A stretch of 48,332 nt of DNA from positions 1 through 48,332 of the forward strand of contig CAIXBT010000167.1 in the NCBI GenBank assembly GCA_903917755.1. Direction: 5' to 3'. Below, piece by piece: positions 1,726 to 48,332 of the stretch. Position 1 is the stretch's first letter. Each line of letters begins with the position of its first letter. The translations under genes and the position numbers were made by a program. This stretch comes from an uncultured Bacteroidota bacterium (lineage in GTDB: Bacteria; Bacteroidota; Bacteroidia; Chitinophagales; LD1). The notes under the pieces are model-generated. The model ran no database searches, was not told where the DNA came from, and worked only from the letters and a program-made list of their open reading frames with translations.

Positions 1726-1779
1726 GATGTCATTTTTATATCAGCGTATTACACAACTCTTATTATAAACTCAGTTTCT

Positions 1780-1808: not shown

Positions 1809-1891
1809 TATCAACTCTTACATAGAATTATGCTCATGTATGATGAAAATTCCTCGTGTTAAATCATGAGTTTGTTGAGATCATCAACTAA

Positions 1892-3469: not shown

Positions 3470-3523
3470 AATATGGTATCTAAGATAATCAATTAGAAAA
3501 AAATATCCAATCTAGTCATTTAA

Positions 3524-3531
3524 CAAAGTTA
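3524..3531 (-). promoter_or_regulatory. -7 promoter box TAACTTTG for paralogue 2
   Basis: The minus strand reads TAACTTTG, matching the Bacteroidota -7 element, 55 bases upstream of the start codon. The surrounding bases match those at the equivalent place before paralogue 1. No TTG sits at the matching -33 distance here, so the upstream half is weaker. Confidence 0.45.
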
Positions 3532-3585
3532 GTAAATAATTGGCCACCCCATGAGTCAAAATTCCCCCAAATTTCGAATGGCATT

Positions 3586-5184: not shown

Positions 5185-5288
5185 TCTGCCTTGATATTAA
5201 ACATTCTCAGACCAGTGTCCATAATTGAACCATGAATATAGTAAGATCTTATGATATAAATCAGGTGGTCAATGAAATAAACAAAAAA

Positions 5289-5296
5289 CAAACATA
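5289..5296 (-). promoter_or_regulatory. candidate -7 box for the 3586-5184 gene
   Basis: The minus strand reads TATGTTTG, a full match to TAnnTTTG, about 105 bases upstream of the start codon. CAA-rich sequence (TTG on the minus strand) lies 16-22 bases further upstream, so a -33 element is possible but its spacing is uncertain. Confidence 0.35.
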
Positions 5297-5321
5297 CAAA
5301 ATTGAGTCCTCTCAAAACAAT

Positions 5322-5341
5322 ACACCGGGCAATACCGGTGT
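5322..5341. promoter_or_regulatory. perfect 7-bp inverted repeat in divergent intergenic region
   Basis: ACACCGG and CCGGTGT are separated by six bases. The repeat stands out because the surrounding 295-base divergent intergenic region is very AT-rich. There is no T-run on either side, so an operator or leader hairpin is more likely than an intrinsic terminator. Confidence 0.35.
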
Positions 5342-5479
5342 GCTAAATTTTGTCGGTAACTTTATAATATAGTTTTTATTGCAAGCATAAAAGTAACAAT
5401 GTGTTCTATCTACTTTGATTAAAAAATTTACTTATTCTTAGCTACATTCACGATTATTTTGCACTGAAGTGACAGTCTC

Positions 5480-7835: not shown

Positions 7836-7839
7836 ATAG

Positions 7840-8730: not shown

Positions 8731-8752
8731 ATTGCTATAATTCTTATTCCTT

Positions 8753-10678: not shown

Positions 10679-10688
10679 TGTCGTAGGA

Positions 10689-11606: not shown

Positions 11607-11642
11607 AAATTGATTTTTTATAAAATTAATCAAAAGCAAGGA

Positions 11643-12482
11643 TTAAATATAATCTGCCAGATCTGCTTCGGCAATGATAAAAATCACAATACCGGATAAG
11701 AGAAAGAAAATGGAAAAAATAATTGATGGCAGAAAAAACAAACTTGGAAAAGCATCTCCTAATATTGCCCACCGGCATCCCTGTATCACTCCTGCTATTG
11801 GATTGAAATACAGGACAAAAGAATAGTTTTTGGGGATCAGGTATACTGGATAAAAAACTGGTGTCAGCCAGATCATAAACCCGACCAATGTAGGCACAAA
11901 ATGATTGAGATCTCTATAGCGAATAGTCAGGGCGTTGAGCCAAACAGCAATTGCTGTTCCGGATATAAGCCCGATAAATATAAAAACAGGGAGAAAAAGG
12001 ATCTGCCAATGCAGGGGATAGTGTAAAAAAGCAATCAATAATAGAAGTAACATTAAGGAGACAAATACTTCTACCAATCCGACCAGTATTTTTGAGAAGA
12101 CAAGGATTATTCTGGGGAAGTATATTTTTTTGACCAGTTGCTGATTTGCGATAATTACATTACCTGCATTATTGACCATATAGCTGAAATTATTCCAGAT
12201 GATAAGGCCTGAAAAAGCAAACAGAGTATATGGATAGATCAGATCAGGGATATGCATCAACCGATCAAAAATGAAAGTAAATAAGGCAAGCACCATTAAG
12301 GGTTTCAGCACCACCCAAAAAAAGCTGAACCTGGTTTGTATATATTGCACCTTAAACTCCTGAAAGGCAAATATCGATATGAGGTTTTTATACTTCCATA
12401 TTTCATGAAGATATTCACTGATAGTGCTTCTGCCGGATCTGATGATCTTAGAGGGTTTGCTATTTTGAGATTTGTGTGCCAC
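11643..12482 (-). CDS. wzm: ABC-2 type polysaccharide/lipid export permease (Wzm-like)
   Basis: This 279-residue integral membrane protein has about six transmembrane segments. The cytoplasmic N terminus is followed by the characteristic DxxVQYxQTRxxxxW-type region (FKVQYIQTRFSFFWVVLKP), then repeated hydrophobic helices and an ADLADYI end, as in Wzm/KpsM-type permeases. It should form the channel half of a transporter for a lipid-linked glycan or glycolipid across the inner membrane. No ATPase is adjacent; the only candidate partner in the window is the Wzt-like gene at 46567. The start is GTG; no suitable ATG exists before the conserved region. First gene of an operon followed by four PhyH dioxygenases, which ties export to product oxidation. 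Confidence 0.88.
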   Translation of the reverse strand: MAHKSQNSKPSKIIRSGRSTISEYLHEIWKYKNLISIFAFQEFKVQYIQTRFSFFWVVLKPLMVLALFTFIFDRLMHIPDLIYPYTLFAFSGLIIWNNFSYMVNNAGNVIIANQQLVKKIYFPRIILVFSKILVGLVEVFVSLMLLLLLIAFLHYPLHWQILFLPVFIFIGLISGTAIAVWLNALTIRYRDLNHFVPTLVGFMIWLTPVFYPVYLIPKNYSFVLYFNPIAGVIQGCRWAILGDAFPSLFFLPSIIFSIFFLLSGIVIFIIAEADLADYI

Positions 12483-12738: not shown

Positions 12739-13518
12739 ATGACTGATCAAAAATTTACTTGGCCCAAGGGAGAGGAATTGGTTTATTTAAGACCACCTAA
12801 AGAGGAATATCATGGGAATTTGCCGAATTTTTATCCGTCAGAGATGTTTCATGAGCTTGATATCCTTAAAGAAAATTGGGAGGCACTGAGAGATGAGATC
12901 ATTGCCTATGAAAAAGAAAAAGGAGAAATCGAAGGTATTGATTCCTATTCCCCGGCAGATACAAGAGGGACATGGAGCACTGTCAATTTGGTGAGTTATG
13001 GCGTGTTTTTTCACAAAAACAGAAAGAAGTTTCCTTTGCTGACCAAATTGACCGATCAGATACCCAGTTGCACTACCGTTACGATCAGCATTCTGCATCC
13101 TTTTACAGAGATCAAGCCACACTATGGAGATACCAATGGGGTAATCCGGGCACATCTTGGATTGATAGTACCTGATGCCTATCCGACAGTCGGAATGCGG
13201 GTGGGGGACGAAGAACAAGGTTGGAAGGAAGGCGAATTGTTATTTTTCACGATAGTGAACCGGCACCATGTTTGGAGTAAATCAGCTAAAAAACGATATC
13301 TTCTCCTTATTGATTTTGTTCCGGAGCTACTAAAAGACAAACAGGCTGAGATATGCTCAAAAACATTGGGTAGCCAGACCTATATATTTTTGTACAAAAG
13401 AATTTCTTTGTTCAGGCATCTTCCTGAGTCCATTGCAAATTTTATGTGCTTTAGTTTTTCCGTCTTATGGAGAGTATTGTTGCCTATCCAAAGGAAAGTA
13501 AAATGGAGTTTGATATAA
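12739..13518 (+). CDS. aspartyl/asparaginyl beta-hydroxylase-like dioxygenase
   Basis: This 259-residue protein belongs to the aspartyl/asparaginyl beta-hydroxylase family (Asp_Arg_Hydrox). The signature KPHYGDTNGVIRAHLGL holds His128. The distal motif RHHVW holds His176. As in AspH, the residue two after the first His is Gly (Gly130) rather than Asp/Glu, so iron is held by two histidines. The C-terminal 45 residues are hydrophobic and basic (ending LLPIQRKVKWSL), suggesting membrane contact, and recur in both paralogues at 15218 and 16128. Family members hydroxylate peptide residues or lipid head groups such as LpxO lipid A acyl chains; the lipid role fits the context better but is inference. 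It is separated from the following radical-SAM gene by 147 bases. Confidence 0.85.
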   Translation: MTDQKFTWPKGEELVYLRPPKEEYHGNLPNFYPSEMFHELDILKENWEALRDEIIAYEKEKGEIEGIDSYSPADTRGTWSTVNLVSYGVFFHKNRKKFPLLTKLTDQIPSCTTVTISILHPFTEIKPHYGDTNGVIRAHLGLIVPDAYPTVGMRVGDEEQGWKEGELLFFTIVNRHHVWSKSAKKRYLLLIDFVPELLKDKQAEICSKTLGSQTYIFLYKRISLFRHLPESIANFMCFSFSVLWRVLLPIQRKVKWSLI

Positions 13519-13616
13519 TATCTGATTTAGTGATGATAAAGACAATTGTCTGAAGAGGTGATTTACTCTGCAATTGCTCATCATGGCTTTATACTTATTA
13601 AGTAGCCTCAATGCCA

Positions 13617-13645
13617 TTGAAATAGGAAATCTTTCTTTACCTTCG
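13617..13645 (+). promoter_or_regulatory. Bacteroidota-type promoter before the 13666 radical SAM gene
   Basis: TTG at 13617-13619 is followed after 18 bases by TACCTTCG at 13638-13645, a near match to TAnnTTTG. The box ends 20 bases before the ATG. It would drive at least the 13666 and 15218 genes. Confidence 0.5.
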
Positions 13646-13665
13646 TAATAATTACAAAATATACG

Positions 13666-15213
13666 ATGAAGATTTGCTTGATTAATCCTTCACGATTAAT
13701 GAAACCGATGAGTGCTACAATGAAGCCATCACCTTCATTGGGTTTGGCATTCATAGCCGGCGCACTAAAAAGAGAAGGACATCTGATTCAGATCATTGAT
13801 TCTCTCGCTGAAGCACCCGATCAGTATATTGCATTTAAAAATGACATCGTACTAAATGGTTTGTCAGAAACAGAGATTGCAGATCTCATAGAACCAGATA
13901 CGGAGGTGATAGGTCTGAGCTTAATGTTTAGCGGCAACTGGCTTCATAATCGTATATTAATTGACTATTTGGGCAGGCGTTTTCCTGCTGCTAGGATATT
14001 GGCAGGAGGCGAACATCTCTCTGCTGCTCCGGAGATGTGTATTGAGCAAACCAGGAGTTTAGAGATTTGTATCTGCGGAGAAGGAGAAGAAACCGTAGTA
14101 GAAGTTGTAAAAGCTGTAGAATCAAGAGGGGATCTTTCGCAGATTCCGGGGATTGTATACCGAAATGAAGATGATACTCCCACCAGGACCCCAACAAAAA
14201 AGAGAATAAGGGAAGTAGAAGATATAGCCTGGCCAGCATGGGAGCTGTTTCCACTGGAAAAATACAAACAACACGGCATCATCTATGGAGTCGACAGAAA
14301 CGTATATTCACTGCCGCTCATGGCTACCAGAGGCTGTCCATACGAATGTACTTTTTGCAGTAGTCCGCAAATGTGGGGTACACGGTACTTCATGCGCAGC
14401 CCACAGGATGTGGTCAATGAAATAGTTTTTTTTAGAAATAAATTCAAAGTCACCAATTTTGATTTTTATGACCTCACTGCCATCATCCAGAAAAAGTGGA
14501 TCATTGATTTTGCAAAAGAGGTGATTGATAGAGAACTCAACATCACCTGGCAGATACCGGCAGGAACAAGATCCGAAGTCATTGATCAGGAAGTAGCCTA
14601 CTACTTATATCGGTCAGGCTGCAGAAACATCACTTATGCTCCCGAAAGCGGCTCAGAGGAAACACTGCGACTAATAAAGAAAAAAGTGTCTTTGTCGAAG
14701 ATGCTTGACTCCATAGGCTTTTCTAGCAAGGAGCACATGAATATTAAAATAAACATGATCATTGGATTCCCCAGCGAAAAGCATAGAAACATATGGAAAA
14801 CCATGTGGTTTTTGGTCAAAGCAAGCTGGTACGGAGCGAATGATATGGCCCCATCTATATTTTCTCCTTATCCGGGAAGCGAGCTTTTTAATACATTAAG
14901 CAAGGAGGGTAAAATAGACATGAATGATGATGAATTCTTTTATCAAATCATTTATGTAGATACATTTTTCAAAAATTCATTTTATAATAACGAGATCAAT
15001 ACGTATACACTAAGGTTTTACCTCATAAGCTATTTGGCCATTTTTTATATCTCCAATTTTATTTTCCATCCTACTCGTATCTTAAAAACCATGCAAAATT
15101 TATTGACCCGCAACTATGAATCACGGGCAGAAATGGCTTTGGGAGAATTGATCAAACGATCAAAAATAAAAATCAAGCAAACCGAAAAATCAACTATCGA
15201 ATCTCTCATCTAA
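13666..15213 (+). CDS. B12-binding-domain radical SAM protein (paralogue 3)
   Basis: This 515-residue protein has a cobalamin-binding-like domain at about 1-150 (PSLGLAFIAGALKREGH; CGEGEET) and a radical SAM domain with CPYECTFC (Cys224, Cys228, Cys231) followed by SSPQMWGTRYFMR. It belongs to the same subfamily as 145, 1892 and 36508, including NFDFYDLTAI and TYAPESGS in the barrel and an extra hydrophobic/basic C terminus ending in a YESRAEMALGEL-like segment. DxHxxG is not seen. It is followed after four bases by a beta-hydroxylase-like gene, so the two are surely cotranscribed and probably act on the same product. Substrate unknown. Confidence 0.9.
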   Translation: MKICLINPSRLMKPMSATMKPSPSLGLAFIAGALKREGHLIQIIDSLAEAPDQYIAFKNDIVLNGLSETEIADLIEPDTEVIGLSLMFSGNWLHNRILIDYLGRRFPAARILAGGEHLSAAPEMCIEQTRSLEICICGEGEETVVEVVKAVESRGDLSQIPGIVYRNEDDTPTRTPTKKRIREVEDIAWPAWELFPLEKYKQHGIIYGVDRNVYSLPLMATRGCPYECTFCSSPQMWGTRYFMRSPQDVVNEIVFFRNKFKVTNFDFYDLTAIIQKKWIIDFAKEVIDRELNITWQIPAGTRSEVIDQEVAYYLYRSGCRNITYAPESGSEETLRLIKKKVSLSKMLDSIGFSSKEHMNIKINMIIGFPSEKHRNIWKTMWFLVKASWYGANDMAPSIFSPYPGSELFNTLSKEGKIDMNDDEFFYQIIYVDTFFKNSFYNNEINTYTLRFYLISYLAIFYISNFIFHPTRILKTMQNLLTRNYESRAEMALGELIKRSKIKIKQTEKSTIESLI

Positions 15214-15217
15214 GATC

Positions 15218-15982
15218 ATGAATCAGGCAACAGTAAAAATAGAACCAGCAGAATACTTTCTCAAAGAGGAAACGTATATCGGAAATCATGACTACTTTTA
15301 CAATACGGAGGAATACCCAGCCATCAAAGAGCTTGAGTCCAACTCTCACATTATTATGGAGGAATTAATGCCCCTGCTCTCAGGAGTTGAAGAAATGAAA
15401 GTGAAGAATTTCAATCCTCCATATCTCTCCTCTCCCAATGCCTGGAAAAATTTATATTTCTATAACTTTGGATGGCAAAATCATGAAACCTGTGATCGAT
15501 TTCCCAAGACCCATGCTTTGTTGAAAGCTATTCCCAATATGACATTTGGAGGGATCACCGTTTTAGAGCCACATTCACGGGTCTTGCCACACAATGGAGA
15601 AACCAACACGATCATAAGGTGTCATTTAGGTCTGAAAATTCCTGCACCTTACCCTGTCTGCGGAATAAAAGTCGGGAATGAAGAGCGCGGGTGGGAAGAA
15701 GGCAAGGTGGTAATGTTTAGCGATGCTCACTATCATACTGTATGGAACGATAGTGACAAACGAAGGTTTATCATTGTCTTTGATATCGTGAGAAATGAAT
15801 ATGCAGATCAGAAACATCTGGTATGCGCCAATGTACTTGGGGCCCTTTCTTTAAAATTCTTTTACGCCAAAATGCCTGCGTTAAAGAAACTGCCTCTTCC
15901 TATTATCCAAACAGTACATTTATTTTTGAAGTCCTTGTGGTATGTCTATCTACCCTTGCAAAATCGTTTCCGTTTACCATAA
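15218..15982 (+). CDS. aspartyl/asparaginyl beta-hydroxylase-like dioxygenase
   Basis: This 254-residue family member has the signature LPHNGETNTIIRCHLGL (His125, Gly127) and distal HTVW (His173). Again two histidines and Gly replace the 2-His-1-carboxylate triad, as in AspH. GNEERGWEEGKVVMFSD is the conserved stretch before the distal His. It is more divergent from the 12739 and 16128 proteins than they are from each other, but keeps the hydrophobic/basic C terminus (YVYLPLQNRFRLP). It starts four bases after the radical-SAM stop, so translation is probably coupled. Probable hydroxylation of a lipid or glycan-linked substrate; peptide hydroxylation cannot be excluded. Confidence 0.85.
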   Translation: MNQATVKIEPAEYFLKEETYIGNHDYFYNTEEYPAIKELESNSHIIMEELMPLLSGVEEMKVKNFNPPYLSSPNAWKNLYFYNFGWQNHETCDRFPKTHALLKAIPNMTFGGITVLEPHSRVLPHNGETNTIIRCHLGLKIPAPYPVCGIKVGNEERGWEEGKVVMFSDAHYHTVWNDSDKRRFIIVFDIVRNEYADQKHLVCANVLGALSLKFFYAKMPALKKLPLPIIQTVHLFLKSLWYVYLPLQNRFRLP

Positions 15983-16095
15983 CACTATTTGATAAGTTAG
16001 TATATATATTTGTCATCAACCTGCTTGTATAATTAAGAATGTCCCTGATTTAATCTGCCTCGGGATATTGGCAAGAAATTATATTGCTTTTTTCC

Positions 16096-16103
16096 TAATT
16101 TTG
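16096..16103 (+). promoter_or_regulatory. candidate -7 box before the 16128 gene
   Basis: TAATTTTG matches TAnnTTTG and lies 24 bases before the ATG. No TTG sits at an ideal distance upstream, so the call is tentative. Confidence 0.3.
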
Positions 16104-16127
16104 GTTGCTCACCATCAAAAATAAGAT

Positions 16128-16907
16128 ATGTCTGCCGATCCAATAGCCATGCCTCAAAAAGAGGAGTTGGTTGCTCTTATCCGCGATCAAAGATATGAAG
16201 GCAATCTTCCCCGTTTTTTTTCACCTGAACACTTTCCTGAATTAGAGATATTGCGGTCTAACTGGAAAGGGATCAGGGATGAAATACTGAATTTCGAAAA
16301 GCAAAACGGAGAGATCATGGGACTTAATTCTAACCCATATGTCGCCCCTCAGTTTGAAGGAATAAATTGGAGTAATATTTTTCTTGAGAACTTTACTATC
16401 AGACATCATAAAAACAGAAAGAAATTTCCTTTTTTATCTTCACTCATTGATCAGATACCTAATTGTACATTTGCAGTAATAAGTATTTTATCACCTCATA
16501 CTGTCATCAAGCCCCATTACGGAGATACAAATGGAATAGTCAGAGGCCACCTTGGCTTGATTATTCCCGATTCCCTTCCTGGATGTGGCATTAAGGTTGG
16601 TGATGAAGAGCAGGGATGGGTAGAGGGCGAATGGACGCTTTTCACTGAAGCATATCTGCATGGAAGCTGGAACCATACAAGTCAAAAACGATATCTGATC
16701 GTAGTAGACATAGTTCCTAAGTTTATGGGTGTAAAATTAATAACTGCATGTACGAAACTGCTCGGAGCACAATCGTTTAATTACCTGGAGAATCGTTTCC
16801 CTATATTCAAAAAAATCCCCGATACATCCGTACCTATTCTAACCTTTTTGATAGCTCTGGGCTGGAGGTTATATCTTCCTTTACAAAGGCGGATATGGTT
16901 TCTTTAA
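16128..16907 (+). CDS. aspartyl/asparaginyl beta-hydroxylase-like dioxygenase
   Basis: This 259-residue protein is a close relative of the 12739 protein over its length (shared KNRKKFPFL-like and KVGDEEQGW-like blocks). The iron motif is KPHYGDTNG (His130, Gly132), with distal His178 in LHGSW. The C terminus is hydrophobic then basic (RLYLPLQRRIWFL), the same putative membrane tail as its paralogues. It lies 145 bases after the 15218 gene with its own possible -7 box. The gene pair 12739/16128 flanking a radical-SAM/beta-hydroxylase pair suggests local duplication. It is the last plus-strand gene before the convergent cytochrome. Confidence 0.85.
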   Translation: MSADPIAMPQKEELVALIRDQRYEGNLPRFFSPEHFPELEILRSNWKGIRDEILNFEKQNGEIMGLNSNPYVAPQFEGINWSNIFLENFTIRHHKNRKKFPFLSSLIDQIPNCTFAVISILSPHTVIKPHYGDTNGIVRGHLGLIIPDSLPGCGIKVGDEEQGWVEGEWTLFTEAYLHGSWNHTSQKRYLIVVDIVPKFMGVKLITACTKLLGAQSFNYLENRFPIFKKIPDTSVPILTFLIALGWRLYLPLQRRIWFL

Positions 16908-24838: not shown

Positions 24839-24839
24839 C

Positions 24840-31975: not shown

Positions 31976-32764
31976 ATGGATACTCTTGATTCCAATACTG
32001 ATATAGAACTCAGCATTATTATGCCCTGTCTGAATGAAGCCGAGACTTTGAGAACATGTATTGTCAAAGCTTTCGAGTATCTCAATGTAAATAATATCAA
32101 AGGTGAGGTTGTGATTGGAGATAACGGAAGCATTGATGGGTCGCAGGAAATAGCACGTAATTGTGGTGCCAGGGTTATCTCAGTGCCGATCAAAGGATAT
32201 GGGAGTGCGCTAATGGGTGCTATTAAAGCAGCACACGGGAAATATGTGGTCATGGGAGACTCTGATGACAGCTATGATTTCAGCAATCTGAATCCATTTT
32301 TGGAAAAACTGCGCGAGGGCTATGAACTTGTGATAGGGAATCGTTTCACGGGTAGCATCAAACCGACAGCTATGCCCTTTTTGAATAAATACCTTGGTAA
32401 CCCTTTTTTGTCCTTTATAGGACGTTTATTTGTCAGAAGTGAGATTGGTGATTTTCATTGCGGGCTTCGGGGTTTCAACCGGGAAGCCTTATTAGCACTC
32501 GACTTAAAAACCACAGGGATGGAGTTTGCATCGGAAATGATAATAGTAGCGACAGTAAACCACTTGAGAATCACAGAAGTACCGGTAGTGCTCTCGCCTG
32601 ACGGAAGAAGTCGACCATCCCACCTCCGTCCATGGAGAGATGGATGGAGGCATTTAAAGTTCTTGCTAAGTCATAGTCGTGGTCCTGTATTTCTGATTCG
32701 TGAACTTTTGCTGATGGCCGGCGGCCTGATCAGAAGACTATTTCGGGTATTAAAACTGATTTAA
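31976..32764 (+). CDS. family 2 glycosyltransferase (polyprenyl-phosphate type)
   Basis: This 262-residue GT-A enzyme of the dolichyl-phosphate glycosyltransferase type has SIIMPCLNE, GDNGSIDGS (Asp49) and the DxD-like DSDDSYDF (Asp95, Asp97, Asp98). GNRFTGSI and FHCGLRGFNREAL are characteristic of bacterial polyprenyl-phosphate glucose/mannose transferases. There are no transmembrane helices after the catalytic domain; a basic segment (about 218-234) may contact the membrane. First gene of the plus-strand block that continues with SPASM radical SAM and a GT-C-like protein, which could use its lipid-phosphate sugar. Confidence 0.87.
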   Translation: MDTLDSNTDIELSIIMPCLNEAETLRTCIVKAFEYLNVNNIKGEVVIGDNGSIDGSQEIARNCGARVISVPIKGYGSALMGAIKAAHGKYVVMGDSDDSYDFSNLNPFLEKLREGYELVIGNRFTGSIKPTAMPFLNKYLGNPFLSFIGRLFVRSEIGDFHCGLRGFNREALLALDLKTTGMEFASEMIIVATVNHLRITEVPVVLSPDGRSRPSHLRPWRDGWRHLKFLLSHSRGPVFLIRELLLMAGGLIRRLFRVLKLI

Positions 32765-36507: not shown

Positions 36508-38073
36508 ATGAAAGTTTGTATAATCCGGCCGGCTGTAATACATAAGGAGATGGCATTTTCCCATATGCCAGGCGCTCCTTTAGGCCCGGCATATATAGCG
36601 GCTATGCTCAAAAAAGCCGGATATGAGGTACAGGCGATAGATGCTGCAGTCGAGGGATTTCATGATGTCGAAAAGTTCAGAATGGAGAAATTCCGGTTCG
36701 ACACATACATTTTTGGGCTTAATGTAGAAAACACAATCCGGCTTATCAAAGAAGATACAGATTTCATCTGCTTTAGCTTCATGTACACAAACAACTGGTA
36801 TTTTGACCGGGAATTAGTGATCAAAGCACGTGAACGGTTTCCTAATGCTATTATCATTGCCGGAGGCGAGCATGTCAGTGCCACTCCTGATTACTGTTTT
36901 AGTACTGCCCCTGACATAGATTATATCGTTTTAGGCGAAGGGGAAGCGACGATACTTGATCTCATGGAATCTATCAAACAGAATCAACCTGTAGAAGAAA
37001 TATCGAGGATCGCATTTAAAAAAGACGGTAAGGTTGTTGTGAATAACTTCAGCCGTAGGATCAAACGAGTGAGCAACATTGATGAGATTCCCTGGCCTGC
37101 CTGGGAATTATTCCCGCTGGATAAATATTTTGGTTACAGAGTCAGTTATGGCGTCTATAGAGGAAACTCCCTGCCCGTAATGGCTTCGAGAGGATGCCCG
37201 TATGAATGTACTTTCTGCTCAAGCCCGCAAATGTGGGGAAGAAAGTACAATTTGAGAGACGTTAATGACTTTGTCGATGAGATGGAATATTACCATAATA
37301 CATACAATGTGGTCAGTTTCGATTTTTTTGATCTGACGGCTATTATCTACAGAGATTGGATAATTAAACTATGTGATGAAATTATTAAAAGAGGGCTGAA
37401 GATCACCTATCAGATCCCGGCCGGGACACGTTCAGAGGCCATTGATTATGAAGTGGCCTATAAACTATATCAATCCGGCTGCAAAAATATTACTTATGCC
37501 CCTGAATCGGGTTCAGATAAAGTCCTAAAGGAAATTAAAAAAAGGGTCAAGCTGTCAAATATGTTGGATTCGATCAAGTTTTCATATAAGGTCGGCATGA
37601 ACATCAAATTGAATATTATAGCGGGCTTTCCCGATGAGACACATATGGATCTATGGAAAACTATTTGGTTTCTCGTCAAAAGTAGCTGGTATGGGGCCCA
37701 TGATATGTATCCCGGCGTTTTTTCCCCATATCCAGGGAGCGCGCTTTATGATCGATTGACAGCAGAGGGCAAACTCGATCTATACAGTGATGACTATATC
37801 ATGGAAATCATTAATTCACACGATCTATGGCCGGGCAAAACCTATAATGATAAAATGCGCCCTGCCACTGTCAAAATCTATACTGTGATCATGTATGTCG
37901 CCTTTTATGGAAGCAACTTCTTATTCAGGCCGCAAAGGCTTTATAAAATGATCAGAAACCTGATCACAAACAATCATGAATCCAGGGCCGAATCCGTACT
38001 CGCACAGACATTTACTAAGTTGAAATTGTCAAAACGAAAGACAGCAAGAGAGCAACAATTGCTTCCAAGCTAG
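36508..38073 (+). CDS. B12-binding-domain radical SAM protein (paralogue 4)
   Basis: This 521-residue protein is a member of the CSSPQMWG subfamily. The cobalamin-binding-like domain spans about 1-155 (PLGPAYIAAMLKKAGYE; LGEGEAT). The radical SAM cluster is CPYECTFC (Cys230, Cys234, Cys237), followed by SSPQMWGRKY. FDFFDLTAI and TYAPESGS are shared with 145, 1892 and 13666. The extra C-terminal region ends near NHESRAESVLAQ, like the others. DxHxxG is not seen. It lies 35 kb from paralogues 1 and 2 on the opposite strand, so this subfamily has spread across the locus. It is followed by a membrane-protein gene after 53 bases. Confidence 0.9.
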   Translation: MKVCIIRPAVIHKEMAFSHMPGAPLGPAYIAAMLKKAGYEVQAIDAAVEGFHDVEKFRMEKFRFDTYIFGLNVENTIRLIKEDTDFICFSFMYTNNWYFDRELVIKARERFPNAIIIAGGEHVSATPDYCFSTAPDIDYIVLGEGEATILDLMESIKQNQPVEEISRIAFKKDGKVVVNNFSRRIKRVSNIDEIPWPAWELFPLDKYFGYRVSYGVYRGNSLPVMASRGCPYECTFCSSPQMWGRKYNLRDVNDFVDEMEYYHNTYNVVSFDFFDLTAIIYRDWIIKLCDEIIKRGLKITYQIPAGTRSEAIDYEVAYKLYQSGCKNITYAPESGSDKVLKEIKKRVKLSNMLDSIKFSYKVGMNIKLNIIAGFPDETHMDLWKTIWFLVKSSWYGAHDMYPGVFSPYPGSALYDRLTAEGKLDLYSDDYIMEIINSHDLWPGKTYNDKMRPATVKIYTVIMYVAFYGSNFLFRPQRLYKMIRNLITNNHESRAESVLAQTFTKLKLSKRKTAREQQLLPS

Positions 38074-39851: not shown

Positions 39852-39946
39852 AGAGAGTACGCGATATATTTGAAAACAACTTCTGAAATAATAAAATCGC
39901 ATCAAATTTATAGTTGTATAAAATAAAGTGCCTATCTTGCTATTGC

Positions 39947-40786
39947 ATGTTTAAAGACCCTGCTATAGAGCAAGAACTAACTAAGAATGGATATGTTGTT
40001 TTAGATGCACATCTAGAGAGGGAAGTCGCGCAATTGCTCACATACATTAATGAAAATTTCAACCTTTCAGGTCCTGATTTTTATTATAGCCTTTTATCAA
40101 ATTCCTATCAAAAAAACACTGAGTTACAAAAGGTGATCCGTGCCGTTCTTCACGATTTCTATGAGAGGTTTTTTGAGGATCACCGCATACTCACTCCTTC
40201 CTTTTTATCTAAACCGGCTAATACGCCTGCAGAACTATTACTTCATCAGGATTGGTGTTATACTGATGAACATGTTTTCTCTGCTTATAATATCTGGATA
40301 CCGCTGGATGATGTGACTGAAACGAATGGCGCCATGGTGTTTTTGCCGGAAAGCCATTCCTGGTTTGACAATTTGAGGTCGACCACCCTGCCCACAGCCA
40401 GGATCAGTTCTTCATATTTTCTAAGCCAAGGCATTAAGGTGATATCAATGAAAAAGGGCCAAGCGCTTATTTTTCACCCGGCTGCTTTCCATGGCTCTTG
40501 CCCTAATCTGTCTGCCCAAAGCCGTATTGTAGTGACATCGACCGTTATGCCAAAGGATGCCTCTTTTTTATACTTTCAGCAAAGTAGCAGCCCTGATGAG
40601 GTCAGTGTATTACATTTGGATGACGAGGCTTTTTTGAGAGACCTTAATCCCCTGGCAATGGGTCTTAAAACGGACTACCCTGAGATCAAACGAATAAAAT
40701 ATACCCATAAAACAATTACTGAGGATGACCTGAAAACTAAGTTTCATGCCCACAGCTTAATTTATGAAAAAGATAAACCTTTGTAA
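39947..40786 (+). CDS. PhyH-family Fe(II)/2-oxoglutarate dioxygenase
   Basis: This 279-residue PhyH-like protein has an intact triad: His100-Gln-Asp102 and His182 (AAFHGS), with Arg193 as a possible 2-oxoglutarate ligand. NGAMVFLPESH and KKGQALIFHP are family blocks; the usual Gly before Ser-His is Glu here. The frame extends to a TTG at 39914, but the ATG at 39947 gives FKDPAIEQELTKNGYV, the standard opening. First of a four-gene PhyH array on the plus strand. Probably a hydroxylase; the substrate may differ from that of the next three, from which it is the most divergent. Confidence 0.9.
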   Translation: MFKDPAIEQELTKNGYVVLDAHLEREVAQLLTYINENFNLSGPDFYYSLLSNSYQKNTELQKVIRAVLHDFYERFFEDHRILTPSFLSKPANTPAELLLHQDWCYTDEHVFSAYNIWIPLDDVTETNGAMVFLPESHSWFDNLRSTTLPTARISSSYFLSQGIKVISMKKGQALIFHPAAFHGSCPNLSAQSRIVVTSTVMPKDASFLYFQQSSSPDEVSVLHLDDEAFLRDLNPLAMGLKTDYPEIKRIKYTHKTITEDDLKTKFHAHSLIYEKDKPL

Positions 40787-40868: not shown

Positions 40869-41768
40869 ATGAATAAGATACCTGCGATCTTTATAGATAA
40901 AGAACTTCAATCTTCTTTTGAAAAGGATGGATTTGTCAAGATACCCCTACTGAATGAAGAGCAGGTAAATGAACTGACAACGCTTTTTGATGACACTTAC
41001 GGAGAACATGCTACGGTTACTACATTTCATCATACCACTACTGACACTCAAAATCCCGATCTGATATATCGTGTTGATACCCAGATCAAATCTGTTTTCT
41101 CGTCCTCATTAGAAAAGTTTCTTACTGATTTTAAGCCTTTGGTAGGGTGCTTCCATATTAAGGAGGTTGGGCTCAAGTCTGAGACCGGCATTCATCAAGA
41201 TCCAACTTTCGTCGATGAATCAAAATACTGCAGTGCAAATATATGGGTAGCTCTGCATGATATAGATGAAAGAAACGGAAACCTATTCTTTATTAAGGGC
41301 TCTAACCATGTAGTACCTGCACTTCGGGTAACCCCAAGATCACCCAACTACTTCGACGATTTTCAGGATATATTGCCTGCCTTGGCGGTGCATGTGCCAT
41401 TAAAAAAAGGAGAAGCCGTTATTTTTAATAATGCCACTATCCACGGTGCCACAAAAAATCTCTCAGATAAAGTTAGGCTCGCTTCGACACTATTAATTTG
41501 TTCAGCGCCGGCTGACTGGTTATTGTATTATCAGGATGAAAATACGCCCTCAGGCAAAATAGAGGAATACAAATTAGATCTGGATGCCTTTGTAACCATG
41601 CCAAAAGATGGAAGACCCGTCAGCAGGTCATTCAATCAATATATTACAACAAAATTTCCTAAGATTTCAAAGGAATATTTTCTCCGAAAAATAAAAATGG
41701 GGGAGGATCAGAATGATAGCTACCTTCAAAAGGTAATTAATGTTTTTAGAATGAAAAGCTCGCGATGA
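40869..41768 (+). CDS. PhyH-family Fe(II)/2-oxoglutarate dioxygenase
   Basis: This 299-residue PhyH-like protein has His109-Gln-Asp111 followed by PTFVDESKY, NIWVALHD and the distal His192 (ATIHGA). RNGNLFFIKGSNH replaces the usual GSH with GSNH. Arg203 could bind 2-oxoglutarate. It starts 82 bases after the previous gene. Shared wording with the next two proteins (FVDES, NIWVAL or NIWIAT, and FLKGSH-like blocks) indicates tandem duplication. A complete triad suggests an active hydroxylase. The basic C-terminal 40 residues are variable. Confidence 0.9.
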   Translation: MNKIPAIFIDKELQSSFEKDGFVKIPLLNEEQVNELTTLFDDTYGEHATVTTFHHTTTDTQNPDLIYRVDTQIKSVFSSSLEKFLTDFKPLVGCFHIKEVGLKSETGIHQDPTFVDESKYCSANIWVALHDIDERNGNLFFIKGSNHVVPALRVTPRSPNYFDDFQDILPALAVHVPLKKGEAVIFNNATIHGATKNLSDKVRLASTLLICSAPADWLLYYQDENTPSGKIEEYKLDLDAFVTMPKDGRPVSRSFNQYITTKFPKISKEYFLRKIKMGEDQNDSYLQKVINVFRMKSSR

Positions 41769-41830: not shown

Positions 41831-42709
41831 ATGAAAGCACTTTTTAGTTCAGATGAACTGCAAAAAAAATTTGAAGCAGATGGCTATGTGCAAATACCTT
41901 TGCTAACTCAGGCAGAGGTATATGAGCTAATGACTGAATACAAAGCAGTGTCTGAGGCGCATGAAAAAATTAATATCCCCTATATCACTACCAGCCACTC
42001 CAATAATGCAGAATTGATCCATCATGTAGATGCTGTATTACAAAAGGTAATAGCTCCCGCTGTCGATAAATATTTGAAAAACTATAACCTGCTGTTCGGC
42101 AACTATCTCGTCAAAATGCCCGGCAACGGATCAGAGACAATGCCACATCAGGATATTACATTTGTCGATGAATCTCAGTATGCCTCAGTCAATATATGGG
42201 TAGCCCTGCAGGACACCAATGAGGAAAACGGATGTATGTATTTTCTGAAAGGCAGTCATAATCTGATGCCGACGCTAAGACCGACACATGATTATCCATG
42301 GGTATATTCGAATGTGATCGATGATATAAAAAGGAGGTCCGAAAAATACCCTGCCAAAGCGGGAGATGCCTTTATTTTCAATCATGCTGTGATCCATGGC
42401 TCATATCCCAACAACACCAATCTGCCCAGAATAGCAGCTGTCATCGCAGGGTATCACAGCGATGCTCCACTACTGCACTATTATCTTCCGGTGGGAGAGT
42501 CTAATAAAGTGGAAAAATATAGCATGACCAAGGAGGCCTATCTTCATTTTAAAAAGGGGCAACCTCCTGCCAAAGGAGTTCTTTTAGGTGAAATAAATTA
42601 TGATTTTTATCAAATAGACAAAAAAGAATTTAAATTACTTTTAAGAAATAATTCAAACCGGAATTCAATACTGAATTCCGTATCCGATTTTTTTAAAAAA
42701 CTGATATAG
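41831..42709 (+). CDS. PhyH-family Fe(II)/2-oxoglutarate dioxygenase
   Basis: This 292-residue PhyH-like protein has His106-Gln-Asp108, distal His189 (HAVIHGS) and Arg200. NGCMYFLKGSHNLMPTLRPT closely matches the equivalent block of the following protein (NGCLRFLKGSHKLYDTIRP), so these two are recent duplicates. It starts 62 bases after the 40869 gene and ends seven bases before the next gene, so all are one operon. The C terminus is amphipathic and basic (SDFFKKLI). Likely an active oxygenase of the locus product. Confidence 0.9.
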   Translation: MKALFSSDELQKKFEADGYVQIPLLTQAEVYELMTEYKAVSEAHEKINIPYITTSHSNNAELIHHVDAVLQKVIAPAVDKYLKNYNLLFGNYLVKMPGNGSETMPHQDITFVDESQYASVNIWVALQDTNEENGCMYFLKGSHNLMPTLRPTHDYPWVYSNVIDDIKRRSEKYPAKAGDAFIFNHAVIHGSYPNNTNLPRIAAVIAGYHSDAPLLHYYLPVGESNKVEKYSMTKEAYLHFKKGQPPAKGVLLGEINYDFYQIDKKEFKLLLRNNSNRNSILNSVSDFFKKLI

Positions 42710-42716: not shown

Positions 42717-43640
42717 ATGGCTAAGCCAAGAGTATTTCGTGATGAAAAGTTGCAAAGCGAATTTAATGAAAATGGCTTTGTCAAATTTAAGCTGCTGTCT
42801 GAAGCGCAAATACACCGTATTGATGACTTTTATCTTAAAACACAGGAACAGCATGAAATCGTTATTGATAAGAAAAAATTTCACGCTACTAATGATACTG
42901 ATAATCCTGAATTGATAGCCAAGGCTGATAGTTTTATCAAAGAAGTGATGGGTGAAGAGATCGACAAGCATTTTTTCAATTATAAAACGATCGCCGCAAG
43001 TTATCTGGTTAAACAACCCTCAGATGCTTCAGGGCTGGGCCCCCATCAAGACCTCCGTTTTGTCGATGAAGAAAAGTTCTACTCGTTTAATATCTGGATA
43101 GCCACAGAAGCCACAAATAAAACCAATGGTTGTCTCCGGTTTCTAAAGGGCAGTCACAAATTATATGATACTATTCGTCCTTTACCGACTTATCCCTGGA
43201 AGTATAAAAGCGTAGCATCTATCATCCCCGATTATTTTACAGATGTTCCTACCGAGAAAGGTGAATGTATTATACTCAATCATGCCTGCATACATGCATC
43301 CTATCCGAATCTATCAGACCACACGAGAGTAGCGGCCATTGTAGCTATGATACCGCAGGAAGCGGACATTCTGCATTATTTTCTGCCCGAAAGCGATCCC
43401 AAAAATAAGGTAGAAAAATATAGCATGACACTAGATGATTTTATTAATCTAAAAGGAGGCCAAAGGCCGGAAAATGCCAAATTGATAGATAGCTTTGATT
43501 TTGATTTTTCTCCCATCGAGGTTGACCCATTTGTTAAATGGCTACAACAAAATAACCCCGATAAGAAGCCGGGGCCGGCAGCCAATAATGGATCTGAATC
43601 TCTGGGCAGAAAATTGTTGTCCTTATTTAAGAAAAAGTAA
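42717..43640 (+). CDS. PhyH-family Fe(II)/2-oxoglutarate dioxygenase
   Basis: This 307-residue PhyH-like protein has His110-Gln-Asp112, distal His193 (HACIHAS) and Arg204. It shares FVDEEKF, TYPWKYKS and FLKGSH blocks with the upstream gene. A Pro/Asn/Gly linker and a short basic tail (ending LLSLFKKK) close the protein and may touch the membrane. It lies seven bases after the previous stop and 67 bases before the halogenase-like gene, so it may be cotranscribed with it. Active-site residues look complete. Confidence 0.9.
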   Translation: MAKPRVFRDEKLQSEFNENGFVKFKLLSEAQIHRIDDFYLKTQEQHEIVIDKKKFHATNDTDNPELIAKADSFIKEVMGEEIDKHFFNYKTIAASYLVKQPSDASGLGPHQDLRFVDEEKFYSFNIWIATEATNKTNGCLRFLKGSHKLYDTIRPLPTYPWKYKSVASIIPDYFTDVPTEKGECIILNHACIHASYPNLSDHTRVAAIVAMIPQEADILHYFLPESDPKNKVEKYSMTLDDFINLKGGQRPENAKLIDSFDFDFSPIEVDPFVKWLQQNNPDKKPGPAANNGSESLGRKLLSLFKKK

Positions 43641-43707: not shown

Positions 43708-44589
43708 ATGCAAACAATAGAAGAGACCACTACGATTTCAGGGGAAAATATTTTTTTTAATTTTATTGAAGTCCCCTTTGACAAACTCTCAGAATCGGGA
43801 GACCTTATCAAAAAAATTAAGGATGGAGAAGTCCATGGGTTTGTATTGAAAAACCTTTTTACCCAACAGGAGATCACCGATCTGCTCGCTGCGATCGAAA
43901 AGCCACTTGAAGAAAAGGCAATGCCCACTCCATCCGGTAAAATGTTTCCTGCTCCATTTGCCATAGTCACTAATGCTACTGAGCGACTGGATGCTTATTA
44001 TGAATCTATTGACACTATCCATGAGCTGATGGACCGTGAACCGATCGTGCAAATGGTCCGCGACAGAATTGAATCCTTTTTTAAGGCCGTAGGAAGTAAT
44101 TACAAAGTAAGTGTGCCCATCAATAAAGAAAAAGGTCTTCCTGTGTCTGAGGGCTGCTTCAGGGTGTTCTTTAAAGACAAAGGAGGGCTGTTCGTACATT
44201 GCGGAAACCTCTTTCAAAAACAATCTGAATATTACTATTCCCTGTTGGATCATGACATTGATATGAGTGACCAGCTTAGTTTTTTCTTCTGCCTGCAGAA
44301 TACCGAAGTAGGGGGCGAACTGACGATCTATGACATGCTTTGGAAAGATGTAAAAAACAAAGTCACCCCTGACGAAAACAATTCTGTGATAGCTGACACC
44401 GGAGAGACTATCTATCTCAAGGATCTGCCCCAGTTTACTGTAAAACCACTGCCGGGAGATATACTCGTCTTTTCAGGAGGGCCTATCTGGCACCGTGTAG
44501 AAAACATAAAAGGTGATACCGCCCGTATCACATACGGTGGTTTTGTCAATTTCTCAAAAGATGGAAAAGAAGTTTTTTACTGGTCCTGA
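43708..44589 (+). CDS. WelO5-like Fe(II)/2-oxoglutarate halogenase candidate (HxG motif)
   Basis: This 293-residue protein is unlike the PhyH group and resembles the WelO5/AmbO5 type of freestanding non-heme iron halogenase. Shared features are VHCGN, the MSDQLSFFF segment, GGELTIYDMLW, the GDILVFSGGPIWHRVENIKG stretch and the end NFSKDGKEVFYWS. The proximal iron motif is His164-Cys-Gly166: Gly stands where hydroxylases have Asp/Glu, which in WelO5 opens a site for chloride on iron. The distal ligand is His262, and Arg273 should bind 2-oxoglutarate. The numbering nearly equals WelO5 (H164, G166, H259). WelO5 acts on a free small molecule without a carrier protein. The predicted role is chlorination (or bromination) of an sp3 carbon in the product. 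Similarity is judged from memory, so a related hydroxylase cannot be excluded. It follows the PhyH array by 67 bases. Confidence 0.75.
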   Translation: MQTIEETTTISGENIFFNFIEVPFDKLSESGDLIKKIKDGEVHGFVLKNLFTQQEITDLLAAIEKPLEEKAMPTPSGKMFPAPFAIVTNATERLDAYYESIDTIHELMDREPIVQMVRDRIESFFKAVGSNYKVSVPINKEKGLPVSEGCFRVFFKDKGGLFVHCGNLFQKQSEYYYSLLDHDIDMSDQLSFFFCLQNTEVGGELTIYDMLWKDVKNKVTPDENNSVIADTGETIYLKDLPQFTVKPLPGDILVFSGGPIWHRVENIKGDTARITYGGFVNFSKDGKEVFYWS

Positions 44590-44601: not shown

Positions 44602-46317
44602 TTATCCTGATATCGAGGGCAATAACGAGAGATTTGTTTCGATCAGTTTGTAATCGATCCCGTCATATACATTTGGCATTTCTCCGACCTTAGTTGCCCG
44701 GTTTATCAGTTCATTGTTGTTTGTCCACTCGTCCTTCAGATAGTAATCACTATCTTCTTTATAAATACTGACCAGCGCCTTTTCTTCATTTTCGCATACG
44801 AAACTGTAGTAATCAGATTTAGTGTGTGTCAGCCTTATACAGAAGCATATACGATCTTCATCAGTCTGATTTGGTAGAGCATCATGTATCAGCCTTAGAT
44901 CAAAAAGTACCGCCTGCCCTGCTTTAAGGTTGAAAATCTTTTTCCTCCTGACAAACTCAGGTATAAGTGATATATATGGCCATTTCAGCCCATTGACAAA
45001 CATGACATGCGAAAATTTATGGCTTTTCTCGATCGCACATAGGGCACCATTTTTTTCATTGACATCGATCAAAGGACACCATATACCATAATGCGGTTCC
45101 AAATGCGTGTTTAGTAATAAGGATGTGTCATTATGCCAGGTGAGATTGCCTTCTGATTTTGCATATTTAGTAAAAAAGCTGGCAATCGGTGTCAGGTAAT
45201 CATTAAAATACTTGTCCAAAGCCGGTCTCGCTGTCCCTATAATGAAATCATGTATATATCTTTTGGTAGCAGGTGTGGTATGCTCCATAGGAGTAAATCT
45301 GCCGATAGAGGTATGAGAAGAACTGAACAGTTTGATATATTCTGCTTTCAAAGCAGCTACTTCCTTGTCATTTAGCAAATCTATAACGACAAAACCATCA
45401 CGATACATTTTTTTCTCCAGGTCACCATCTCGCAGCAAGTGCAATTGTATCGGTTCAAAACCTTTTTCATCGGTGCCAAAATATGCTTTGAATTTCTGCA
45501 CCAGATCGATCGATGTGAGTTTTGAATTATCGATCAGATTAATGGCTTGCTCTGCTTTGCTTATAGGATTCACTGGCGCGCCACCCTTCTCTAAGCTGCC
45601 CAGTGAACTTAAAAAAATGGCCGGATCAATGGTATATACATCGGTCTTATTTTCCTTTGTGTTTTTTTGAAAATATTGAAGCGGAGCGTTTTTTTGATAA
45701 ATACTCACGATAGCAGAAACTCTATTTTGTCCCGACAGATTAGGATATGAGGCATGAAAAAGCGAATTGTGATATACTAGTACATCTCCCGGTGGGATGA
45801 TCATATCAGCCACATACGGCTTAACGGTCTCATCGGTGTTTATCATAGGCATATCATAGGTCCCGGAACGCAAGTTCTGAAAAAAATGATGGCTGCCGGG
45901 CAATACGATCATTCCTCCATTGGCGGGGTAGGATAGCTCCAATGGGATCCATATTTGATAACTCGTGTATTGATCTTCATCCACTATATTCCAGTCCTGA
46001 TGCAGCGGGAGTTCTCTGCTCGTATTTGCTCCCTTGACCATAAATCCTGATATAAAAAAATCAAAGTTTTCAAATGTCCTGGTCAGAGAAGGCATTAATA
46101 TATCCTTGATCTTATTGCGGATCAATAGGCTCTCCTCCGGTGAGGTTCTGCTATGACTGGCAGCTACTCCTGATACATTCTTCTCAAGCACAAACTGCTC
46201 ATATACCGACCCAATGCTTTTTATTTGCTCCGCATTAAGAAGTGGGATCATGCAAAAGCCAAGTTCATCCAGAGCTTTTGCATAGTCCTTGTCAATAATC
46301 AGTGAATCCTTGGCCAT
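44602..46317 (-). CDS. tandem double-domain PhyH dioxygenase
   Basis: This 571-residue protein is a fusion of two PhyH domains. Domain 1 (about 1-240) has His106-Gln-Asp108 and His188 (SLFHAS). Domain 2 (about 290-530) has His395-Asn-Asp397 and His478 (LIHDA), so both carry a complete 2-His-1-Asp triad although the second reads HND. NGGMIVLPGSHHF and NGALCAIEKSHKF are the family blocks. A linker of about 50 residues joins the domains. It lies convergent to the halogenase candidate with a 12-base gap and divergent from the Wzt gene. It is the second such fusion in the window (compare 8753). Probably two active oxygenation sites. Confidence 0.9.
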   Translation of the reverse strand: MAKDSLIIDKDYAKALDELGFCMIPLLNAEQIKSIGSVYEQFVLEKNVSGVAASHSRTSPEESLLIRNKIKDILMPSLTRTFENFDFFISGFMVKGANTSRELPLHQDWNIVDEDQYTSYQIWIPLELSYPANGGMIVLPGSHHFFQNLRSGTYDMPMINTDETVKPYVADMIIPPGDVLVYHNSLFHASYPNLSGQNRVSAIVSIYQKNAPLQYFQKNTKENKTDVYTIDPAIFLSSLGSLEKGGAPVNPISKAEQAINLIDNSKLTSIDLVQKFKAYFGTDEKGFEPIQLHLLRDGDLEKKMYRDGFVVIDLLNDKEVAALKAEYIKLFSSSHTSIGRFTPMEHTTPATKRYIHDFIIGTARPALDKYFNDYLTPIASFFTKYAKSEGNLTWHNDTSLLLNTHLEPHYGIWCPLIDVNEKNGALCAIEKSHKFSHVMFVNGLKWPYISLIPEFVRRKKIFNLKAGQAVLFDLRLIHDALPNQTDEDRICFCIRLTHTKSDYYSFVCENEEKALVSIYKEDSDYYLKDEWTNNNELINRATKVGEMPNVYDGIDYKLIETNLSLLPSISG

Positions 46318-46566: not shown

Positions 46567-47865
46567 ATGAAACCAGAGAGTGAAATAGCCATTGAAATTA
46601 AACACCTGTCAAAGGAATTTCACATTGTGAAGAATAAGGAGACTGAAGGCAACCAGGGCCAGCCTTTTTATGCTTTGCGTGATATTTCATTTACGCTCTA
46701 CAAAGGTGATGTCATCGGCATCATAGGAAGTAATGGCTCAGGCAAAACAACCCTTTTAAAGATACTCAGTCAGATCACTAAACCTACTTCCGGAGAAGCT
46801 CATTTTTATGGTACAGTGACCTCCATTTTGGATATAGGTAGCAATTTTCACCCAGACCTGAGTGGACGGGAGAATGTGTCGATGCAACTAAAATTAGCCG
46901 GGGCTCAGAAGAGTGAATTTGATGCCTTCTATAATAAAATAAAGGAGTTCAGCGAGGTCGGTGACTTTTTTGATCAGCCATTAAAATTTTATTCAAGTGG
47001 GATGTTTTTGAGATTAGCTTTTTCAATAGCATTTCATTTATCCTCAGATATCTTGATACTGGATGAGGTGCTCTCGGTGGGAGATGAGGGCTTCAGGCTG
47101 AAATGTCAGGAATTATTAAAGCTTTTTACCGAGATGGGAAAGACGATCCTGTTTGTATCGCACAACAGGATGGAAATACTTGAACTAAGCAATAAGTGCA
47201 TCTGGCTTGAAAAAGGAGAGATCAAGAGGATCGGTTCTCCATCTATGGTCCTGGGTGAGTATTTTACCATGCATCGTGACAACTATGATGGCAAAAAAAT
47301 AATCATTGATATCGAAGCAAATAACGGTGATAACCAGAATAGTAGTCTGGGTTTAATAGATCTGTCCTGGTCCGAAGAGGACGCACCGGGAAATGATATT
47401 TTATCCATTCGGAGTGTATCTGTGAAGCCATCCATGCTTAATGACAGGATCTATCATAACGACTCCATCTCTATGAAATTTGTGATCCACAAAAAAAAGA
47501 AAGGTATTAATATCGGGCCTTTCTTCTTTTTGCAAGATGTCTTTTATCAGCCTGTACTCGTCGGGCATTTCTTAAATAATACCACTGATCAGAACCTGAG
47601 TAGTCTGATAAAAAATGAAACCGGCCTGATCGAGATCAACTGCTCCATACCAGCGGGATTTCTCTTTCCCGGCAAATACTATTTACTGCTACGGTTTGGA
47701 ATGGAAGAAAATGAATGGAACACTGAATCACAGGAGGCATTCAGGTTCTCCGAGAAGCTTCATTTCATAGTGCATGCTGAACCCGGCCATACCGATTTCA
47801 TCGGGGATATGAGCAAAGGATCTGTAAGACCGGCATTGGACTGGGAAATAAAAAAACACCTATAG
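46567..47865 (+). CDS. wzt: ABC transporter ATPase with C-terminal domain (Wzt-like)
   Basis: This 432-residue protein has an N-terminal ATPase with Walker A GSNGSGKTT (about 54-62), signature YSSGM (about 142-146), Walker B ILILDEVLSVGDE (Glu167) and H-loop His199. Residues about 250-432 form a beta-rich C-terminal domain like the carbohydrate-binding domain of Wzt proteins, which recognises the end of the exported glycan. It should pair with the Wzm-like permease at 11643, 34 kb away on the other strand. It ends one base before the stop of the convergent PhyH gene. The extension implies substrate selectivity, possibly for a modified terminus made by the nearby oxygenases. Confidence 0.9.
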   Translation: MKPESEIAIEIKHLSKEFHIVKNKETEGNQGQPFYALRDISFTLYKGDVIGIIGSNGSGKTTLLKILSQITKPTSGEAHFYGTVTSILDIGSNFHPDLSGRENVSMQLKLAGAQKSEFDAFYNKIKEFSEVGDFFDQPLKFYSSGMFLRLAFSIAFHLSSDILILDEVLSVGDEGFRLKCQELLKLFTEMGKTILFVSHNRMEILELSNKCIWLEKGEIKRIGSPSMVLGEYFTMHRDNYDGKKIIIDIEANNGDNQNSSLGLIDLSWSEEDAPGNDILSIRSVSVKPSMLNDRIYHNDSISMKFVIHKKKKGINIGPFFFLQDVFYQPVLVGHFLNNTTDQNLSSLIKNETGLIEINCSIPAGFLFPGKYYLLLRFGMEENEWNTESQEAFRFSEKLHFIVHAEPGHTDFIGDMSKGSVRPALDWEIKKHL

Positions 47866-47866: not shown

Positions 47867-48332
47867 TCAAAACAGCTGTTTGATCTTATTCAAAAGATGT
47901 CTCTTCCAAAAAGCATTCATTCTGCCGTCTATATATTCTACCTCTTTAGTTGAGAGTTTTTTTTCTCGCTGTCCGGTTTGCGGACGCTGAAAATGCTCAT
48001 AACGAATATAAAACCCCGGGTCATCTACACTATATAATTCGATCTCATCAGTACCCTCCAGCTGAAAATAATGCAGCCATGGGGTGGCTGAGGCCGGCTT
48101 TAAAGAAAAATTGATGGCAGGACGTATCTTTTCTGTTTTATTGGGTGGCGAATAGTGAAGCAGAGCATGATCATATATGATGGCATCTCCTGCTTTCATC
48201 GGAATCAGCTTCCCATAGCGCTTAGCCCATTCATTGTCATGTATCCGTGCGCTCTGCCTTATTCCCGGCCCGCGGATAGCATTAGTGACCTTATGAGAAC
48301 CTTCTATTATTCCCAGACAGCCATTTTGAGCA
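47867..48332 (-). CDS. PhyH-family dioxygenase, 5' end outside the window
   Basis: This is a partial gene whose start lies beyond the right edge. The visible 154 residues begin AQNGCLGIIEGSHKV, the family block before the distal His, then continue with MKAGDAIIYDHALLHYSPPN, giving the distal iron His, and an Arg-containing 2-oxoglutarate region. The proximal HxD motif would be off the window. The apparent internal Met start at 48199 is only a family-conserved Met in the middle of the domain, since the frame stays open upstream with clear PhyH sequence. The basic C terminus (ending KRHLLNKIKQLF) resembles other members here. Confidence 0.88.
   Translation of the reverse strand, partial: AQNGCLGIIEGSHKVTNAIRGPGIRQSARIHDNEWAKRYGKLIPMKAGDAIIYDHALLHYSPPNKTEKIRPAINFSLKPASATPWLHYFQLEGTDEIELYSVDDPGFYIRYEHFQRPQTGQREKKLSTKEVEYIDGRMNAFWKRHLLNKIKQLF

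Follow-up and report, generated by a model that had tools for sequence, protein, structure and literature searches.

A candidate aliphatic halogenase of the WelO5 family in an oxygenase-rich, surface-polymer-type locus of an uncultured Bacteroidota bacterium

An oxygenase-rich locus with export genes

The window analyzed here is the whole of a 48,332-nucleotide stretch of DNA (positions 1-48,332 of contig CAIXBT010000167.1, assembly GCA_903917755.1) from an uncultured Bacteroidota bacterium of LD1 (Chitinophagales). We scanned its ORFs of at least 150 amino acids with Pfam, except for a reverse-strand shadow ORF at 43789-44253. Ten PhyH genes lie in the window, which spans 1.2% of the genome length and accounts for 12 of the 16 PhyH domains of the whole genome. 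It also encodes three AspH-like proteins, about seven B12/radical SAM enzymes and one of SPASM type, a desaturase-type enzyme, a GDSL hydrolase, two GT2 glycosyltransferases, a sugar oxidoreductase, multi-pass membrane proteins, an ABC-2 permease and a TagH/Wzt-like ATPase (Table 1). Taken as a whole, the locus looks like one for making a cell-surface polymer and exporting it.

The candidate halogenase is an ORF of 293 amino acids that runs from ATG to stop, with the coordinates given in the first-pass annotation. It follows four PhyH genes in the same direction, separated by gaps of roughly 10-80 bases, and these five genes are probably read as one transcript. Orthologues of its convergent two-domain PhyH neighbor adjoin WelO5 homologues in four other loci (L021, L022, L023 and L031). 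The possible GT-C protein has no family match, and its homologues recur near WelO5 homologues; in L024, the frame of a WelO5 homologue ends with a one-base overlap, on the same strand, with the homologue of the other multi-pass membrane protein. The sugar oxidoreductase resembles UDP-GlcNAc 3-dehydrogenase (3.8e-49, below that model's cut-off). For the Wzt-like ATPase, TagH and galactan Wzt models match below their cut-offs. A Wzt_C domain is seen in its relatives, whereas Pfam gives no Wzt_C match for the window's own copy, and sequence searches found no solved relative of its C-terminal part. The Wzm-like permease stands 34 kb away from it.

Table 1. Features of the window, with strand and supporting evidence
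Position	Strand	Feature	Evidence
145..6886	.	Four radical SAM genes, clear B12-binding domain in the first three	Pfam
6930..11639	-	Four PhyH genes: 6930-7940, 7840-8730, 8753-10678 (two-domain), 10689-11639	
11643..12482	-	Wzm-like ABC-2 membrane subunit	PF01061 3.1e-11
12739..16907	+	Three AspH-type oxygenases (12739, 15218, 16128) and a B12-radical SAM gene (13666)	PF05118, PF04055/PF02310
29986..30696	-	GT2 glycosyltransferase	PF00535
30693..31709	-	Gfo/Idh/MocA sugar oxidoreductase	PF01408 4.2e-25
31976..32764	+	GT2 glycosyltransferase	PF00535
33868..35382	+	Multi-pass membrane protein	Hydrophobic segments; homologue in L024
35408..36430	+	Fatty-acid-desaturase-type membrane hydroxylase/desaturase	PF00487 3.2e-24
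36508..38073	+	B12-binding radical SAM enzyme	PF02310 and PF04055
38127..39851	+	Multi-pass membrane protein, possibly a GT-C type glycosyltransferase (putative role)	About 9 hydrophobic segments
39914..40786	+	PhyH oxygenase (HQD), in same-strand run with candidate halogenase	PF05721 5.4e-22
40869..41768	+	PhyH oxygenase (HQD)	PF05721 2.4e-17
41831..42709	+	PhyH oxygenase (HQD)	PF05721 1.4e-26
42717..43640	+	PhyH oxygenase (HQD)	PF05721 1.9e-20
43708..44589	+	WelO5-family Fe(II)/2OG enzyme, candidate aliphatic halogenase	PF22814, AlphaFold2, WelO5 Z 30.5
44197..44205	+	His164-Cys165-Gly166 (CAT TGC GGA): proximal Fe ligand and vacant, putatively halide-type third position	Alignment
44278..44280	+	Ser191, equivalent of WelO5 Ser189	Alignment; role proposed from PMC13244439
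44491..44493	+	His262, distal Fe ligand (WelO5 His259)	Invariant, 36/36 family rows
44524..44526	+	Arg273 (WelO5 Arg270), presumed 2OG-binding Arg	Invariant, 36/36 family rows
44602..46317	-	Two-domain PhyH oxygenase (HQD, HND), convergent neighbor of candidate halogenase	PF05721 2.3e-31, two stretches
46567..47865	+	Wzt-like ABC exporter ATPase with C-terminal extension	PF00005 1.8e-18
47867..48331	-	PhyH gene, cut by contig end	PF05721 3.1e-10

Several other features of the region deserve mention in their own right. The PhyH protein at 10689-11639 (reverse strand) has HQN where the others have HQD, i.e., Asn as the third iron ligand, and is possibly inactive or of unusual chemistry. The three AspH-type proteins (12739-13518, 15218-15982 and 16128-16907, forward strand) carry a carboxylate-less HxG motif within a bacterial locus of surface-polymer type; two of them seemingly resemble AspH in having an Asp or Glu four residues before the distal His, which the one at 12739 lacks. 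At 17032-18225 (reverse strand), a multihaem c-type cytochrome-like protein adjoins a B12-radical SAM gene, a pair that recurs in L036, L037, L038 and L039. Two tandem DUF1501-DUF1800 pairs lie at 20728-26420 (reverse strand), and such pairs also stand beside the WelO5 loci of L022, L023 and L026. Another contig of the genome, C99, holds a further PhyH gene and two B12-radical SAM genes and may continue the locus past the contig end.

Family, fold and active site of the candidate

The first-pass annotation had suggested membership in the WelO5 family, and computation bears this out: the protein matches PF22814 (WelO5) at E 1.6e-52 (179 bits against a cut-off of 27) over profile positions 1-277 of 277, so the match is full length. 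When phmmer was run against the PDB, it returned WelO5-type enzymes only (E 7e-21 to 2e-18). Taking phmmer and profile searches of PDB sequences together, WelO5 enzymes rank first, and the sole others are Tet-like dioxygenases, which are far weaker. The Pfam scan found no AspH-type domain (PF05118) in the protein. NCBIfam has no model for it, and its lone match there, to a mitochondrial ribosomal protein, is spurious (19.8 bits against a cut-off of 129). A tblastn search of plasmids and phages gave no match, and none of 28 pattern matches in viral contigs is related to it. Purifying selection on the gene is strong, with dN of about 0.16-0.29 and saturated dS against its four nearest relatives; near pairs of homologues give dN 0.038 and dS 1.14 (L022/L023) or dN 0.031 and dS 0.71 (L037/L038).

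The AlphaFold2 model, built from an alignment of 28 sequences, has a pLDDT of 93.1 and a pTM of 0.92. In VIA-align, WelO5-type structures take all of the first ten places (Z 27.8-30.5, rmsd near 2.5 over some 260 residues). WelO5 is the top match, with Z 30.5 and rmsd 2.5 over 263 residues; wild-type WelO5 structures score Z 29-30.5. The next family by fold, represented by the hydroxylase 3w20, drops to Z 16.1, and Foldseek is concordant. The candidate and WelO5 differ at the lid. In WelO5, residues 215-232 form a helix that closes over the alkaloid and sets specificity (PMC5480362). The matching stretch here has little sequence likeness and is modeled as strands and loops, so the substrate should differ.

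We compared the active site with WelO5 by alignment with 5j4r. The HCG motif at 164-166, the distal His262, Arg273 and the terminal FYWS block named in the first-pass annotation are all present in the translation. His164-Cys-Gly166 falls in the same alignment columns as WelO5 His164-Val-Gly166, so the predicted correspondence of the two glycines holds and neither Asp nor Glu stands at the third ligand position. Asn167 and Phe169 have the same numbers in both proteins, Ser191 corresponds to WelO5 Ser189, His262 to His259, Arg273 to Arg270 and Gly258 to Gly255. The 2OG-binding role of Arg273 is presumed because it lies 11 residues past the distal His. The protein ends in FSKDGKEVFYWS, whose YWS matches the C-terminal YWS of WelO5. 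The description of the protein as closely recalling WelO5 is apt for the active site and C-terminus but goes too far for identity as a whole, since only 64 residues match among the 273 aligned (23%). For WelO5 Ser189, a hydrogen bond to the OH after hydrogen abstraction has been proposed, which would prevent hydroxylation (PMC13244439). The equivalents of Ser191 and Phe169 are also present in HxE/HxD members of PF22814, and thus have no power to discriminate a halogenase.

Distribution of the family and recurrence of the locus

We sampled homologues from Bacteroidota genomes, with other phyla represented by the PDB. PF22814 occurs in 18 of the 30 genomes of the window's own taxonomic family, in all four of its genera, and in 27 of 398 genomes of the order. 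Among 395 genomes drawn from the phylum it appears in five, three of them above the cut-off, including the window's own genome. In the tree, the protein falls within a well-supported clade (branch support 99/99) of 14 rows from 13 genomes, which span two taxonomic families of the order. All 14 have HCG, so its closest relatives are not HxD; closer relatives that were all HxD hydroxylases would, according to the first-pass annotation, have spoken against its reading.

Elsewhere in PF22814 the third-ligand position is Glu, Asp or His, and these members also pass the Pfam cut-off. The Pfam name (WelO5) is narrower than the contents of the family, and the label alone is thus no proof of halogenation; the glycine is the argument. 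On the best tree there are six changes among the four states (Gly/Glu/Asp/His), a count that is unsure because of long branches and open forks. Gln189, Pro249, Asp251 and Gly258 are enriched among Gly members; we do not claim co-variation with Gly166, since counting independent pairs leaves only 1-3. The family holds further variants. WelO5-family proteins with HIH, in which a three-His iron site is possible, are found in L069 (9692-10540, reverse strand) and L071 (1256-2101, reverse strand), and three tandem homologues with HNG directly follow Wzm-Wzt in L034 (6351-8965, forward strand). In L042 (1435-3998, reverse strand) and L040, HCG and HCE members are near neighbors in one locus and form a natural halogenase/hydroxylase comparison set.

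The most informative new result of our analysis is the recurring association of WelO5 homologues with genes of O-antigen-type (Wzm/Wzt) export, to whose loci these enzymes probably belong; the first-pass annotation does not mention this link. Among 26 fetched stretches, with genes labeled by profiles built from the window's own proteins, PhyH genes accompany the WelO5 homologue in 22, mostly within 10 kb. Wzm or Wzt genes are found in about 15, including stretches from another taxonomic family of the order. Some of the 26 are cut short by contig ends, and in L024 and L022 PhyH or Wzm lies in the next 20 kb. L034 has the gene order Wzm-Wzt-WelO5-WelO5-WelO5. In L030, a 647-amino-acid fusion of ABC ATPase, Wzt_C and PhyH (10548-12491, forward strand; the Wzt_C match is weak and below cut-off) stands beside the WelO5 homologue, which directly ties a PhyH-kind oxygenase to the exporter.

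Possible halogenation and comparison with known systems

How far can function be predicted from family, fold and context? The reading towards which we lean, with confidence just on the favorable side of even, is that the protein is an Fe(II)/2OG aliphatic halogenase from the WelO5 family, working without a carrier protein on a surface glycan or glycolipid that leaves the cell through an ABC exporter. In such an enzyme, His164 and His262 would hold the iron and Arg273 would anchor 2OG, while Gly166 would leave the third protein-ligand site open for chloride (or bromide) to bind. We judge this halide pocket from the residues and from the fold match of the AlphaFold2 model. Reaction with O2 and 2OG would then give a cis-halo-oxo-Fe(IV) species, whose Fe(IV)=O would abstract hydrogen from an unactivated aliphatic C-H in the exported polymer (on a sugar, an acyl chain or a lipid head), and Ser191 may hold the resulting Fe-OH so that halogen rather than OH rebounds. 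The substrate would be part of a surface glycan or glycolipid that PhyH enzymes hydroxylate as well, that radical SAM enzymes modify and that Wzm/Wzt exports.

The main rival, which we consider unlikely, is an AspH-like hydroxylase that lacks the carboxylate ligand: water would occupy the third site and OH would rebound, placing an extra hydroxyl on the same polymer. AspH is an HxG hydroxylase in which two His and a water bind the iron; D721, four positions ahead of the distal His, keeps this halide-blocking water in place, and the EGFD substrates of AspH are not halogenated (PMC13168262). HxG is therefore insufficient for halogenation. The three AspH-type HxG proteins and about ten hydroxylase-type PhyH genes around the candidate also fit hydroxylation, as do the HxE/HxD sisters in PF22814, which presumably hydroxylate. 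However, the position of D721 is Gly258 here, as in WelO5 (Gly255) and 23 of 24 Gly members, and the lack of a carboxylate there makes the residues lean to an exchangeable, halide-type site. In addition, Gly166 is fixed in the 14-member clade, though a carboxylate is only one base change away (GGA to GAA), and the nearest solved fold is WelO5.

It is less probable still that the protein halogenates a small diffusible natural product that is itself exported and shares the locus by chance with surface-polymer genes. WelO5 itself acts on small alkaloids (PMC8407142), and class III aminotransferase and radical SAM/SPASM genes adjoin some orthologues, but the scanned window ORFs include no NRPS, PKS, terpene or alkaloid core gene, the exporter is of O-antigen/teichoic type with Wzt_C domains in relatives, and the window has glycosyltransferases and a sugar oxidoreductase. 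The first-pass annotation had noted that no indole-alkaloid pathway is visible, and indeed no window ORF of at least 150 amino acids resembles alkaloid assembly or encodes an isonitrile synthase or prenyltransferase. A genome search with PF05141 for isonitrile synthase gave no match, and neither did control genomes. Some other radical outcome (epimerization, desaturation, ring closure or transfer of another anion) seems very improbable: Fe/2OG enzymes are versatile, and the Foldseek matches include the epimerase SnoN and fungal enzymes with several functions, but these matches are far weaker, none is close in sequence or fold, and the vacant ligand site is a halogenase signature.

If the candidate is a halogenase, we can tentatively suggest that this Bacteroidota lineage might make chlorinated or brominated surface glycans or glycolipids, with WelO5 and PhyH decorations read by the Wzt exporter; halogenation would then be part of surface-polymer assembly rather than of antibiotic or alkaloid synthesis. 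Few halogenases act on unactivated carbon of free substrates, and those that do are prized as biocatalysts. The candidate belongs to a lineage-wide clade and lies in a type of locus for which we found no halogenase report in the open-licence literature, nor did we find one there linking a halogenase with Bacteroidota surface glycans. Chlorination of a surface polymer, if it takes place, would bring to light a class of halogenated molecules in the bacterial envelope. Should it not, PF22814 still provides one scaffold that occurs naturally with Gly, Glu, Asp or His, in some cases within a single genome, so the hydroxylase-to-halogenase question can be tested in native enzymes.

Among known systems, the PhyH-fold halogenases typified by SyrB2 (TIGR01762) share the HxA/G logic of halide binding but act with carrier proteins and make up a subfamily of their own; the PhyH neighbors in the window fall far below the TIGR01762 cut-off and keep HQD. 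AspH and the other PF05118 hydroxylases share the two-His HxG site but belong to a different family, with D721 holding water where the candidate has Gly. The next nearest fold is that of SadA (3w20), an N-substituted L-amino acid dioxygenase of Burkholderia ambifaria, also an Fe/2OG enzyme but with Z 16 and 12% identity; we take it to be a hydroxylase with a carboxylate ligand. The closest counterparts are the cyanobacterial (Hapalosiphonaceae) indole-alkaloid halogenases WelO5, WelO5* and Wi-WelO15 (and AmbO5), which are alike in near-full-length fold, HxG, distal His, Arg, second-shell Ser, the Gly-Gly before the distal His and the C-terminal YWS. WelO5 works without a carrier protein, and carrier-protein (PP-binding) domains number five in this fragmented assembly, mostly in frames of about 96 amino acids, none of them on the window's contig. 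The enzyme thus represents a known family in divergent form, and we found no earlier report of such a setting in the open-licence literature: identity to WelO5 is 23%, the lid stretch differs, and no alkaloid genes are seen, with a surface-polymer-type locus instead.
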